A DNA stretch of 64,000 nt from Bacteroidota bacterium (lineage in GTDB: Bacteria; Bacteroidota; Bacteroidia; B-17B0; Aurantibacillaceae). The notes below the pieces were generated by a model that did no database searches, had not been told where the DNA came from, and worked only from the letters and a program-made list of their open reading frames with translations. Both the position numbers and the translations under genes were made by a program. The stretch covers positions 124,001 to 188,000 of the forward strand of contig JACCXH010000049.1 of NCBI GenBank assembly GCA_013697245.1, in the 5' to 3' direction. Positions 45,446-49,838 of this stretch are shown here, one piece after another (within the stretch, counting starts at the first letter, position 1; the number at the start of each line of letters is the position of its first letter).

Positions 45446-45940
45446 GTGAAAAAACTATTACTTCTGGTTTTAATACCCTTTTTATTTTATAATTGCCGCC
45501 CAAGATTGGTCAGAACGGGATATTTTATTCAAACAGATTATAAATACTGCGATAAGATCATCAAATACAAGATGGTAATTACAGATTCATCAATGACAAA
45601 AATGGGCCAGGTACGTTTTCGAAAATTTGGAACTTTTGGTAAATCGTATACAGAAGCAAATGCTTTAGGGCAATTAAAAAGGGAGGCTTGTACGATTAAC
45701 GCTGATGTTATAAATATTATAAAGGAAAAGCGTGTTAGGTTGTTTAGCAATGCTTACCGCTGTACTGCAGAATTTTATAAATTAAATAAACTAGATACTT
45801 TAAAAAGTGATGAAAGGTTCGATATGATAAATGTTGATAATAGGGTAGGAGTGGATGAACGTAAAAATTCGAGAAATATAAAGATAATGACGGCAATATC
45901 ATTAATTTCACTTGTCTCATCAGCAGCATTAGCAAACTAG
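45446..45940 (+). CDS. Putative lipoprotein of unknown function
   Basis: A 164-residue protein with a lipoprotein-like start (MKKLLLLVLIPFLFYNC, Cys at about residue 17) from GTG 45446. It has a cysteine-bearing middle region (YKYCDKIIKYKMVITDSSM, LKREACTINADVINIIK) and a hydrophobic C-terminus (MTAISLISLVSSAALAN). A perfect -7 box TATATTTG lies at 45421-45428. The stop TAG (45938-45940) shares a CTAG with the dxr stop on the other strand. It interrupts the dxr-rseP neighbourhood. I do not recognise the family. Confidence 0.7.
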   Translation: MKKLLLLVLIPFLFYNCRPRLVRTGYFIQTDYKYCDKIIKYKMVITDSSMTKMGQVRFRKFGTFGKSYTEANALGQLKREACTINADVINIIKEKRVRLFSNAYRCTAEFYKLNKLDTLKSDERFDMINVDNRVGVDERKNSRNIKIMTAISLISLVSSAALAN

Positions 45941-47094
45941 TTAATTAACTCTAAAGCAATTGTTCTAGCTTCTTTATCGCAATCTATATATTGACTGTAA
46001 TCCGGAGTTTTAATAAAACTCACTTTTTCTAAAGTATTTCCAACAATTTCACTCATTTGTAAAAAGCCTATTTTGTCCTCTAAAAATGCCTGAACTGCTA
46101 CTTCGTTGGCAGCATTCAATACACAGGGCATATTGCCACCTTTATTTAAAGCACTAAAGGCTAATTTAAGGTTAGTGAAGGTATCAAGATCGGGTTTCTC
46201 GAAAGTTAATTGCGGGTAATTTAAAAAATCAAAGCGGGGGAATTTATTTTTTATTCTTAGTGGAAAACCCATGGCATATTGTATGGGCAGCTTCATATCC
46301 GGCAATCCCATCTGTGCTTTCATGCTGCCATCCTCAAATTGAACAATGCTATGAATGATACTTTGCGGGTGAACGATCACATCAATTTTTTCAACTCCAA
46401 TATTAAATAACCATTTGGCTTCTATAACCTCAAGCCCCTTGTTCATAAGACTTGCAGAATCGATGGTGATCTTTGCGCCCATGGTCCAGTTAGGATGTTT
46501 TAAGGCCTGTGCTTTTGTAACGTTTAAAAGGTCCTGACGGGTTTTACCTCTAAAAGGGCCGCCACTGGCAGTTAAATAGATCTTCTCGATCTTATTATCC
46601 CATTCGCCGGCAAGGCATTGAAAAATAGCAGAGTGCTCGCTATCTACCGGGTAAATGTTGACAGCATTCTCTAGAGCCAGCCTGGTTACGAGTTCGCCCG
46701 CAACAACCAAAGTTTCTTTGTTAGCGAGCGCAATTTGTTTTTTGTGTTTAATGGCATTGATGGTAGAGGCAAGGCCCGCATAACCAACCACAGCGGCCAG
46801 AACAAGGTCGATGGTTTCCATCTCTACAATTTGTTCTACCGCTTTTGCCCCGGCATATACTTTAATATCGGTGGCACTAAGCGCTTCTTTTACTTGTTTG
46901 TATTTAGATTCATCGGCAATAACAACCGCATTGGGATTAAACTCCAGGGCCTGTGCTATTAAAAGCTCGGCATTACAATTGCCAACTAAAACCTCTGCTA
47001 CAAAATTTTCGGGGTTTTCCCTGATAACTTCTAGGGCTTGTGTACCAATGCTTCCGGTGCTCCCAATAATTGCTATGTTTTTCTTTTTCTCCAT
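45937..47094 (-). CDS. dxr: 1-deoxy-D-xylulose-5-phosphate reductoisomerase
   Basis: A 385-residue NADPH-dependent enzyme making MEP in isoprenoid synthesis. NADPH loop IIGSTGSIGTQALEVI near residues 9-24; EHSAIFQCLAGE; ASGGPFRGKT; MGAKITIDSASLMNKGLEVI near 198-217; and the NPQLTFEKPDLDTF region. The length is standard. Together with ispE (29661-30494) it shows the MEP pathway is used. The stop overlaps the convergent lipoprotein stop within CTAG 45937-45940. Confidence 0.95.
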   Translation of the reverse strand: MEKKKNIAIIGSTGSIGTQALEVIRENPENFVAEVLVGNCNAELLIAQALEFNPNAVVIADESKYKQVKEALSATDIKVYAGAKAVEQIVEMETIDLVLAAVVGYAGLASTINAIKHKKQIALANKETLVVAGELVTRLALENAVNIYPVDSEHSAIFQCLAGEWDNKIEKIYLTASGGPFRGKTRQDLLNVTKAQALKHPNWTMGAKITIDSASLMNKGLEVIEAKWLFNIGVEKIDVIVHPQSIIHSIVQFEDGSMKAQMGLPDMKLPIQYAMGFPLRIKNKFPRFDFLNYPQLTFEKPDLDTFTNLKLAFSALNKGGNMPCVLNAANEVAVQAFLEDKIGFLQMSEIVGNTLEKVSFIKTPDYSQYIDCDKEARTIALELIN

Positions 47095-47142: not shown

Positions 47143-47173
47143 TTTGCACAATAAATAATCAATCGTAAATTTG
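47143..47173 (+). promoter_or_regulatory. Promoter of the TPP-riboswitch receptor gene
   Basis: TTTG (47143-47146), 19-base spacer, TAAATTTG (47166-47173): a perfect match to the Bacteroidota consensus. Transcription would start near 47180, just before the aptamer at 47185. Confidence 0.75.
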
Positions 47174-47184
47174 CTCCGTCTTAA

Positions 47185-47349
47185 GGGGTGCTTTTTGCAA
47201 TTCAAAATTCAAAATTTAAAATGAAAAAGAGATCCTTGTTCATTTTAAATTATAAATTAAAAATTCATTAGGCTGAGATTAAACCCGTTAACAGTTTACG
47301 CCAAACGTTGCTGTTAAACACCTGAACAGGATAATGCCTGCGGAGGGAA
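47185..47349 (+). promoter_or_regulatory. TPP (thiamine pyrophosphate) riboswitch with two extra hairpins
   Basis: Conserved aptamer blocks are GGGGTGC (47185-47191), GGCTGAGATT (47271-47280), ACCC (47283-47286), ACCTGA (47320-47325), a CAGG/CCTG stem (47327-47340) enclosing ATAATG, then CGGAGGGA (47341-47348). P3 is greatly extended: 13-base stem AATTTAAAATGAA (47213-47225) / TTCATTTTAAATT (47239-47251) and further AT-rich arms. A second extra hairpin, TTAACAG (47288-47294) / CTGTTAA (47311-47317), sits in the junction J2/4 that is normally a few bases. TPP binding is expected to lower expression of the receptor gene downstream. Confidence 0.88.
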
Positions 47350-47408
47350 ACAATTAAAAATAACACATGCCCCACGTGTTGTTATGTTTAATTATAAAAA
47401 ATAAAAAA

Positions 47409-49838
47409 ATGAACAAAAAATTAGTGGCAAAGATATTCTTTGCGGGCGTTTTTTTTAGCTTGGCTAAGATCAATGCTCAAAGCATTCTTTCGGGCAATGT
47501 AAGATCCGATAAAGGCGAAGCCATACCCTTTGCGGTGATTGGTATTAAGAACACACAGCTTTCTGCAACTACAAATTCAGAAGGCGCCTACAAATTCAAG
47601 AATTTAAAACCGGATACTTATGTTCTTACTACAAGGTGTTTGGGTTATCTTGATAAAACAGATACTATAACAGTTGCCGCTGATCTTGTTTTTGATCCGC
47701 AGCTTTTTGCATCTAACAAACAATTGGATGAAGTGGTTGTGAACGCCACGCGGGTAAATAAAAACAATGGTATGGCTTATAGTAACATTGACGCCGAAAC
47801 TTTAAAAAAACAGAACCTTGGGCAGGATGCGCCTTACATGCTAAACTTATTGCCAAGCGTGGTGGTTAACTCAGATGCCGGTGCCGGTGTAGGTTACACA
47901 GGTTTAAGAATCAGAGGCTCGGATGGAACGCGAATAAACGTAACAATTAATGGTGTACCGGTAAATGATGCAGAATCGCAGGGAACCTATTTTGTAGATA
48001 TGCCCGATCTTGTTTCGAGTACCAACAACATACAGGTGCAACGTGGCGTAGGCGCATCCAGCAATGGTGCCGGGGCTTTTGGAGCAAGTATCAATTTTCA
48101 GACAAACGAATTAAAAGACAAACCTTATGCTAATGCTATTTCAACGGCAGGTTCTTTTAATACTTTTAGAAACACTATAGCAGCAGGCACAGGATTATTA
48201 AATAATAAATTCACGTTAGATGCAAGGGCCTCTAACATCAGCAGCGATGGTTATATCGATCGTGCCAAATCAAACCTGCAATCCTATTATGTTGCGGCGG
48301 GTTATTACGGTAAAAAGTCTGTTTTAAAGTTCATTAATTTTTACGGACAAGAAAAAACGTACCAGGCCTGGTATTATGTATTGGAAGACTCGATCAAAAA
48401 AGGTAATCGTACCGATAATCCTGCGGGGTTATATTATGACACTAATGGTAAGCCACAGTATTACAAGAACGAAACCGATAATTACAAACAAAATAATTTT
48501 CAACTACATTTTATTCACCAGGTTAATTCGCGCTTAAGTTTTAACCTTACCGGGCATTATACCAAAGGTAAAGGCTATTACGAACAATATAAACAGGGCC
48601 AGTCCTTATCTGCTTACAATATAAATGATGTTATTACACCCAAAGGCGATACCATTACAACATCTGATATTATTCGTCGTTTATGGTTGGATAATGATTT
48701 TGCCGGTGGGATCTTTAATTTGAACTATACACCCAACTCGAAACTGGCATTTACATTGGGTGGCGGATATAATACCTATTACGGTAAACATTTTAACCGT
48801 GTGGTGTGGGCGCAGTATGCCTCTAATTCACAGATAGATCATCAGTACCTGTTTAACACCGCCAATAAAAATGATGGTAACGTATATTTAAAAACAAATT
48901 ACAAACCTGTATCTACTTTAAATATGTTTATTGACCTACAGGTAAGAAATGTATCACATCGTTTTTTAGGCTTTAACGATTCATTAGCGGCTAAAATGCA
49001 AAACCAATCTTATACATTTTTTAATCCAAAATTTGGTGTAAGCTGGGATGCCTATTCTCATCTTAATATTTATGCTTCTGTTTCAATGGCTAATAAAGAG
49101 CCTAACAGAGATGACTTTGTACAAAGCAGTCCTAAAAGCAGGCCAAAGCCGGAGCAATTAATGGATATTGAGGCAGGGGTTAAATACACTATTAAGAATT
49201 TTTATTTTGCCACCAATGTATATGATATGGAATACAAGAACCAATTGGTGTTGAACGGCAAGGTAAATAACGTTGGGGCTTATAACCGCGTTAATGTTGC
49301 CAGTAGTTATAGAAGAGGGATAGAGGTAGAGGCAAGCGCCAACCTGAATAAATTTTTTACAATTGGCGGTAACGTTACCATCTCGCAAAATAAAATAAAT
49401 AATTTTGTTGAGTATATCGATAGTAGCGATGCCGCTTATACGATATCAACGCAATACAAAAAGGAATATAAGAACACCGATATTTCTTTTTCACCGAACG
49501 AGATCTCGAGCCTAATGTTTGTTATTAAACCGGTAAAAAATATGGAAATTACCTTTACTAATAAATATGTTGGTCGCCAGTACCTTGATAACACTACAAA
49601 TATTAAGCGCAGTATTTCGCCTTATTATGTAACAGATGCTCGCTTTAATTATACCATCAAAACAAATCTAATCCCGGAGATCAGTTTTATGTTTGCTGTG
49701 TATAATTTACTAAGCACTAAATACGAAACAAATGGTTACACCTATAGTTATTATACCGACGCAACGCTGAATACTTTTAATTACAAGGCTCCGGCGGCAC
49801 CAATTAATTTTTTGGGAGGAATAAGTTTGAAGTTTTGA
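47409..49838 (+). CDS. TonB-dependent receptor, likely thiamine-related
   Basis: An 809-residue outer-membrane receptor. The start at 47409 gives signal peptide (MNKKLVAKIFFAGVFFSLAKINAQ-type), placed after the riboswitch; the earlier ATG at 47367 lies just past the aptamer and would add 14 extra residues. Next come a carboxypeptidase-regulatory-like domain (SGNVRSDKGEAIPFAVIGIK), the plug domain (QLDEVVVNATRVNK, GLRIRGSDGTRINVTINGVP) and a beta-barrel ending NFLGGISLKF. The TPP riboswitch strongly suggests uptake of thiamine or a precursor; comparative studies have predicted such TPP-regulated receptors in Bacteroidota. No ABC or Pnu gene follows. Confidence 0.9.
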   Translation: MNKKLVAKIFFAGVFFSLAKINAQSILSGNVRSDKGEAIPFAVIGIKNTQLSATTNSEGAYKFKNLKPDTYVLTTRCLGYLDKTDTITVAADLVFDPQLFASNKQLDEVVVNATRVNKNNGMAYSNIDAETLKKQNLGQDAPYMLNLLPSVVVNSDAGAGVGYTGLRIRGSDGTRINVTINGVPVNDAESQGTYFVDMPDLVSSTNNIQVQRGVGASSNGAGAFGASINFQTNELKDKPYANAISTAGSFNTFRNTIAAGTGLLNNKFTLDARASNISSDGYIDRAKSNLQSYYVAAGYYGKKSVLKFINFYGQEKTYQAWYYVLEDSIKKGNRTDNPAGLYYDTNGKPQYYKNETDNYKQNNFQLHFIHQVNSRLSFNLTGHYTKGKGYYEQYKQGQSLSAYNINDVITPKGDTITTSDIIRRLWLDNDFAGGIFNLNYTPNSKLAFTLGGGYNTYYGKHFNRVVWAQYASNSQIDHQYLFNTANKNDGNVYLKTNYKPVSTLNMFIDLQVRNVSHRFLGFNDSLAAKMQNQSYTFFNPKFGVSWDAYSHLNIYASVSMANKEPNRDDFVQSSPKSRPKPEQLMDIEAGVKYTIKNFYFATNVYDMEYKNQLVLNGKVNNVGAYNRVNVASSYRRGIEVEASANLNKFFTIGGNVTISQNKINNFVEYIDSSDAAYTISTQYKKEYKNTDISFSPNEISSLMFVIKPVKNMEITFTNKYVGRQYLDNTTNIKRSISPYYVTDARFNYTIKTNLIPEISFMFAVYNLLSTKYETNGYTYSYYTDATLNTFNYKAPAAPINFLGGISLKF

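Follow-up and report, generated by a model that had tools for sequence, protein, structure and literature searches.

Introduction

Thiamine pyrophosphate (TPP) riboswitches are organised around a three-way junction, which is described together with its J2-4 contacts in the available parts of several studies (PMC3764141, PMC4005666, PMC10573300). In two of these, as far as the accessible text goes, the junction is an elaborated kink-turn (k-turn), or k-junction, in which J2/4 provides the k-turn loop, followed by nucleotide 1b, a bulged base and A2b (PMC4005666, PMC10573300); in the source text available, nucleotide 1b of TPP k-junctions is G, or A as in E. coli. Here we analyse a TPP aptamer at positions 47185-47349 (+) of a 64,000-nucleotide (nt) stretch of a Bacteroidota genome (the window; contig JACCXH010000049.1, GTDB family Aurantibacillaceae), which carries a hairpin within J2/4 and stands before a gene for a TonB-dependent receptor.

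Extra elements near this junction have precedents. The optional P3a is likewise an additional hairpin near P2; in the portion of PMC2258182 available to us it sits between UGAGA and ACCC, whereas the hairpin of the window comes after ACCC. Departures in J2-4 length or sequence have already been noted for fungal TPP riboswitches (PMC8786325, PMC11683625), and neither case, in the text available, is a hairpin: one is a single added C and the other an unspecified variation. The k-junctions described in the accessible literature carry their extra helix on the non-bulged strand, whereas in the window a further helix emerges from the bulged strand, out of the k-turn loop. The TPP-structure literature that we searched, mostly without subscription papers, did not describe a hairpin in J2/4 of any bacterial TPP riboswitch. 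Regarding the downstream gene, THI elements have been described ahead of omr, a gene for an outer-membrane receptor (PMC2211319, partial text), and OMthi (BT2390) of Bacteroides thetaiotaomicron is likewise a TPP-riboswitch-linked, TonB-dependent outer-membrane thiamine transporter (PMC5613172, partial text). The element in the window shares with RF00059 and the THI element the core blocks, the P2-P3-P4-P5 order and, probably, the gene context, and differs by its 33-nt J2/4 hairpin and a score below the Rfam cut-off.

A TPP aptamer with a hairpin in J2/4

Every core block of a TPP aptamer can be read from the sequence, as an earlier note on this DNA had claimed: GGGGnGC, CUGAGA, ACCC, ACCUGA, GAUAAUGCC and GCGnAGGGA, the conserved core of RF00059, are all present, and GGGA closes the aptamer at 47348. 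Only 4 nt separate GCTGAGA from ACCC, and the window aptamer therefore has no P3a. The stretch was more stable than 200 of 200 shuffled sequences (z -3.5; 0/200 as stable), and its minimum-energy fold contains both a P3 and a J2/4 hairpin. Within P3, a perfect 13-bp AT stem is formed by AATTTAAAATGAA (47213-47225) and TTCATTTTAAATT (47239-47251), just where the note had placed it. The J2/4 hairpin lies between ACCC (47283-47286) and ACCTGA (47320-47325) and consists of a 7-bp stem (TTAACAG, 47288-47294, with CTGTTAA, 47311-47317), an inner 3-bp ACG/CGT helix and a CCAAA loop (47301-47305).

Comparison with the k-junction numbering of PMC4005666, as given in its available text, places A47318 at position 1b and C47319 at the bulge. 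Across 48 hairpin aptamers of the family (see below), the last two bases of the insert are a purine in 48/48 followed by C in 44/48, and the next base is A; A2b and C3b are kept in all 44 distinct rows of the alignment. Positions 2n-1n are G-A in 45 of the 48 and A-A in the other 3, with G at 2n in the window, and the accessible part of PMC4005666 gives such letters as known for k-junctions. Purine 1b, bulged base, A2b, C3b, 2n and A1n are likewise found in the TPP k-junctions of Arabidopsis and E. coli (PMC4005666, PMC10573300, partial texts). Because purine, C and A fit 1b, bulge and A2b, the hairpin appears to lie inside the k-turn loop with the signature bases kept. The short, unpaired loop of a k-junction is absent: in all 48 aptamers J2/4 is 33-36 nt long and folded as a hairpin.

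The hairpin is maintained across the family

All listed family matches below the RF00059 cut-off with E <0.01 were fetched, along with a few weaker ones, and 71 distinct aptamers were parsed. The parsing pattern required GGGGTG, which all 71 hence contain; it missed several fetched loci (e.g. L040, L050, L062, L084, L086, L088), and L125 was dropped by a stricter pattern. Among the unparsed loci, a hairpin-sized insert in J2/4 is present in L084 and absent from L062 and L086. J2/4 measures 33-36 nt in 48 of the parsed aptamers, the window included, and 4-16 nt in the other 23. It is 4-5 nt in 22 of these 23, in keeping with the note's view that this joining region normally has a few bases; the remaining one, L044, has 16 nt that can be folded as a mini-hairpin.

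Possession of the hairpin follows the downstream gene within the family. A homologue of the receptor (tblastn, E up to 1e-3) was found downstream of 47 of the 48 hairpin aptamers, two of which (L029 and L030) offered less than 280 nt of downstream sequence to match; the 48th, L045, has only 178 nt. Among the 23 others, L044 alone directly precedes a receptor homologue, and profile searches on six more placed ThiC or PnuC-like genes downstream. We also observed pairs of TPP riboswitches about 1.2 kb apart (L029/L056, L064, L065), one of them standard and followed by a PnuC-like transporter gene, the other bearing the hairpin and followed by the TonB receptor.

The note had called for an alignment of J2/4 in other Bacteroidota TPP riboswitches. 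Our alignment A1 comprises the 48 stretches from J2/4 to P5 (44 distinct rows), in which each of the 13 J2/4 stem pairs (13/13) shows compensatory, both-side changes and 83.9% of helix cells pair. The covariation score for the whole structure was 0.419, against 0.133 +/- 0.012 for shuffles (0/500) and 0.058-0.099 for slid partners, and unguided RNAalifold recovered seven J2/4 pairs. Because relatedness inflates covariation counts, pair changes were also counted on a tree of the receptor proteins (44 rows): pairs 20-46, 21-45 and 22-44 are paired in 44, 44 and 43 of 44 rows and underwent at least 12, 9 and 9 changes of pair type, respectively. The last two loop columns are mostly A (40/44 and 38/44 rows). 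The J2/4 hairpin is a maintained feature of the clade and no one-off. An apparent A.G/G.A co-change at the hairpin base (A1 columns 16/50, window 47287/47318), present in 40/44 rows versus 21.3 in shuffles, is not claimed because the receptor tree shows only 2 changes.

RF00059 mostly fails to recognise the hairpin aptamers

An Rfam scan of the window at curated cut-offs gave no match. At a relaxed threshold RF00059 scored 32.8 bits, short of its curated cut-off of 54.3, with a match starting at 47280 in which the first helices of the model are wrongly placed in the J2/4 insert. This covariance search, one of the tests proposed in the note, produced no alignment that puts both insertions in standard optional loops; the J2/4 insert was unplaceable, and its position is not that of P3a. 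We read the low score as a limit of the model, and filing the element under TPP rests on the core blocks and gene context.

The same behaviour was seen across the family, where 80 of 87 genomes had an RF00059 match at E up to 10 and only 31 had one over the cut-off. None of the 48 hairpin aptamers reached it (0/48), the best being one of 51.1 bits in G032. A hairpin aptamer with a P3 of only 13 nt also fails (G038/L046, 42.2 bits), so P3 length is not the whole cause of the low scores, and a long P3 by itself also brings the score down, as in G025/L060 (standard J2/4, P3 of 86 nt, 38.1 bits). Thirty hairpin loci of other genera, drawn from the 80 listed in the pattern scan described below and none of them on recognised family contigs, were also put to Rfam: 1/30 exceeded the cut-off (L093, Pantoea, 65.4 bits). 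All 8/8 standard loci used as positive controls passed, and since they were picked from loci already passing, they test the tool and not the rate.

J2/4 inserts in other genera

A pattern scan of species genomes found at least 119 stretches, of which 80 are listed; it gives no frequency. Among the matches listed are Pedobacter, Sphingobacterium, Algoriphagus, Olivibacter, Treponema, Pantoea and a few metagenome-assembled genomes of Clostridia or Bacillota. Nearly all of the inserts shown are predicted to form a hairpin, and among these listed matches the inserts of different genera are very unlike in length and sequence. The J2/4 insertion is thus not unique to the window: it is a clade-wide hairpin that recurs in other genera. 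It is also a minority variant, since in 395 genomes of the phylum a strict hairpin pattern occurred in 7 (that of the window included) and the standard pattern in 108.

Outside recognised family contigs, 62 of 70 hairpin loci precede uptake genes, as judged by best match to a reference set. The remaining 8 comprise one ThiC, one ThiM, two LuxE-like and one unassigned gene, and three loci without an open reading frame in reach. Nine loci were excluded from this count, eight taken as family contigs and L148 taken as a relative. Standard riboswitches show the same context, with 32/40 examined (of 117 listed) before uptake genes, four before ThiC and four before unassigned genes, and we therefore reject the hairpin as a marker of uptake genes outside the family. 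The tie between hairpin and receptor holds within the family only.

Proposed mechanism and alternative explanations

The segment after the aptamer offers a candidate expression platform. CCCC occurs within 58 nt after the aptamer in 43/48 hairpin leaders, in most cases at or close to a predicted hairpin loop, with an A-rich start region following. The duplex between the platform and the GGGG strand averages -14.0 kcal/mol over the 48 leaders (mean z -1.9 versus shuffles; 41/48 below -1). As 18 of the 23 other family aptamers also have an anti-aptamer z below -1, such a segment is no peculiarity of the hairpin aptamers. In B. thetaiotaomicron the OMthi and pnuT transcripts, both TPP-riboswitch-linked, change minimally with thiamine according to the available text of PMC5613172, which fits control other than at the transcript level.

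We consider it likely that the element works as a TPP-sensing OFF riboswitch of ordinary fold, with a maintained J2/4 hairpin, before a probable thiamine-importing TonB-dependent receptor. Placed in the k-turn loop, the hairpin would make a four-way junction of the three-way k-junction and leave the k-turn bases (purine 1b, A2b and A1n; G2n in the window) where they are. With TPP bound, P2 (GGGG/ACCC) would be locked into the aptamer and the CCCC-loop hairpin would close just before the A-rich start region, lowering translation. Without TPP, the CCCC segment would instead pair with the GGGG strand and leave the start region open; we infer from these features a translational OFF control in which the CCCC segment is the anti-aptamer. 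For the J2/4 hairpin, the most likely role is to stiffen or pre-organise the junction and so tune folding or ligand response, a guess with real rivals, chiefly neutrality. What the data show directly is the anatomy, the stem conservation and the gene context, whereas the ligand, the direction and level of control, and the hairpin's role are inferred.

Several observations weigh against this model. We saw no convincing P1 in the window sequence, and anti-aptamer pairing is weak in the window itself (z -0.9). The consensus of the platform alignment keeps only 5 pairs, 4 of them with double changes. Elsewhere in the phylum 31/40 standard riboswitches precede TonB receptors, which shows that the hairpin is not needed for receptor control. 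The J2/4 loop showed no excess of complementarity to the 5' flank or the platform (8/48 versus 8.1 expected). Finally, the opening codons of the receptor gene contain a terminator-like site (47427-47443), and a five-T run occurs near the platform hairpin in 7/48 leaders.

These last two features would favour control by transcription termination on TPP binding, through either the downstream hairpin or the first-codon site, which is followed by a T-run. A scan for terminator-like sites over 401 bases, both strands included, returned 4 (0.3 expected), yet none of these coincides with the window's platform hairpin on the + strand; 0/48 leaders have six T in a row within 75 nt after the aptamer, and the B. 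thetaiotaomicron transcripts change little, so we regard termination as unlikely. The hairpin itself could be a tolerated, neutral variable insertion that is paired only to spare the aptamer core, which we take to be a serious possibility though a doubtful one. Consistent with neutrality, the inserts differ widely between genera, a J2/4 hairpin is lacking from many receptor riboswitches in the rest of the phylum, and no partner was found for its loop in the 5' flank or platform. Against it stand the presence of the hairpin in every parsed family receptor aptamer (33-36 nt in 48; the 16-nt mini-hairpin in L044), the prevalence of A at the final two loop bases, and the contrast with P3 of the same RNAs, for which the 44-row tree implies 10 or more switches between long and short.

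The near-constant length within the family and the two terminal loop adenines would also suit a dock for a protein or a second RNA region, giving the switch a second input. We think this very improbable, given that complementary partners in the flank and platform were no commoner than chance, that inserts of other genera show no common loop by eye, and that we know of no candidate protein. Least probable of all is an aptamer that has changed its ligand and no longer senses TPP: it is favoured by the low Rfam score only, whereas the core letters UGAGA, ACCUGA, GAUAAUGCC and GCGnAGGGA are intact and hairpin aptamers of other lineages precede genes of thiamine-related families, among them a thiamine ABC binding protein, a ThiC-associated domain, hydroxyethylthiazole kinase and Thia_YuaJ. 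We considered a change of ligand and judged it unlikely. The preferred reading remains a TPP-sensing switch whose hairpin may stiffen the junction. The interpretation in the earlier note is, as a whole, partly supported.

Beyond the family, we tentatively suggest, as something that may well prove otherwise, a recurrent TPP subclass with a k-turn-loop helix, forming a four-way junction that would tune the response to ligand or Mg2+; such RNAs would mostly be missed by RF00059 surveys, and uptake genes of Bacteroidota and spirochaetes wrongly seen as unregulated. A k-junction survey of 11,056 sequences used RF00059 members, by the available text of PMC4005666, and so probably missed most hairpin aptamers. 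The blind spot of the standard model implies that thiamine regulation is under-annotated. The natural set of aptamers with and without the hairpin, with long and short P3 and with related downstream genes, would serve well for asking how the stability of the k-junction governs the response of the switch.

The P3 arms turn over rapidly

Enlargement of P3 is ordinary for TPP aptamers, with long P3 elements known from fungi (PMC11683625) and Klebsiella thiC (PMC12632268) in the available text of both papers. The note's judgement that a P3 extension is familiar and a J2/4 insertion less so is upheld on both counts. In 35 P3 elements of at least 50 nt, hairpin and standard aptamers pooled, the arms show a 7-nt period (lag-7 identity 0.515 versus 0.336 +/- 0.010 when shuffled, z 18.5; lag-14, z 15.2). 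Arm sequences differ by species, and P3 switched between long (at least 50 nt) and short forms 10 times or more along the 44-row tree. P3 is thus an appendage rebuilt repeatedly, with arms that turn over quickly.

The suggestion that the AT-rich arms are a dispersed repeat is supported in two relatives, G026 and G019. There the arms have several other copies, such as one with 81% identity over 69 query bases and one with 82% over 70; identities lie at 74-82%, and 67-72 of the 90 bases queried are covered. Sixteen such copy sites were viewed: many are palindromic by eye, 13 overlap an 80-codon frame and 3 do not. In the window's genome, a second full-length copy was not found among the 40 of 94 candidates that were scored; the best other match has E 0.003 over 32 bases, and the longest covers 44/73 query bases at 73% identity (E 0.28). 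Scanning 464 kb of this genome for 7-nt-periodic stretches gave 6 clusters, with no excess over other lags (4-41), and the riboswitch P3 is the strongest palindrome among the 6. Heptamer repeats of a different sequence (TAACTGA) have been described in Beggiatoaceae, Cyanobacteria and five Bacteroidetes (PMC4679880, partial text). Species-specific palindromes with a 7-nt period were thus seen in the P3 of TPP riboswitches (window 47192-47271; L074, L075, L261-L283), and are dispersed in the genomes of two relatives.

Genomic context

The receptor gene starts 60 nt after the aptamer, and the riboswitch makes thiamine its probable substrate (Table 1). The divergent dxr gene lies outside riboswitch control. 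The genome, of 4.44 Mb and an estimated 100% complete, contains no other credible TPP riboswitch (next match 18.4 bits, E 0.8). A search for ThiC gave no match in this genome, and the same search was positive in 13/14 control genomes. As ThiC was not found, thiamine uptake should matter, and the organism is presumably dependent on thiamine or hydroxymethylpyrimidine (HMP), with its one recognised TPP switch controlling uptake.

The -7 promoter box of Bacteroidota has the consensus TAnnTTTG. This motif occurs within 40 nt before GGGG in 37/48 hairpin aptamers. Given the similar box TAAATTTG at 47166-47173, transcription may start just a few bases upstream of the aptamer.

Table 1. Features of the riboswitch locus, in coordinates of the window.
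Feature	Position	Strand	Evidence
dxr (1-deoxy-D-xylulose-5-phosphate reductoisomerase), divergent, outside riboswitch control	45937-47094	-	NCBIfam PRK12464.1, TIGR00243 over cut-off
TAAATTTG box, like the Bacteroidota -7 promoter element, 11 nt before aptamer GGGG	47166-47173	+	sequence
P2 5' strand and start of P3, GGGGTGC	47185-47191	+	sequence
Oversized AU-rich P3, 80 nt, arms with 7-nt period	47192-47271	+	sequence, folding, period test
GCTGAGA (pyrimidine-binding UGAGA), 47272-47278, and P2 3' strand ACCC, 47283-47286	47272-47286	+	sequence, alignment
J2/4 insert, 33 nt	47287-47319	+	sequence, folding, alignment A1, covariation
P4/P5 arm and closing strand ACCTGAACAGGATAATGCCTGCGGAGGGA: A2b, P4, P5, pyrophosphate-side core, G2n, A1n	47320-47348	+	sequence, alignment
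Candidate platform hairpin; its loop contains CCCC (47370-47373), which can pair with P2 GGGGU	47352-47393	+	duplex energies, folding, alignment
TonB-dependent receptor, 809 aa, plug and beta-barrel; probable thiamine receptor	47409-49838	+	Pfam PF00593, PF07715
Terminator-like hairpin and T-run inside first receptor codons	47427-47456	+	terminator-like site 47427-47443; T-run from sequence

Two arrangements in other genomes are recorded here as separate observations. In Pantoea (L093, L129), a TPP riboswitch with a J2/4 insert precedes a frame for a LuxE-like acyl-protein synthetase. At L050 (G074:C58:172676-173280), three near-identical TPP-like aptamers stand in tandem at spacings of about 250 nt; behind each, as judged by eye, lie a terminator-like hairpin and a T-run, and the downstream frame of 461 aa begins like a secreted protein.
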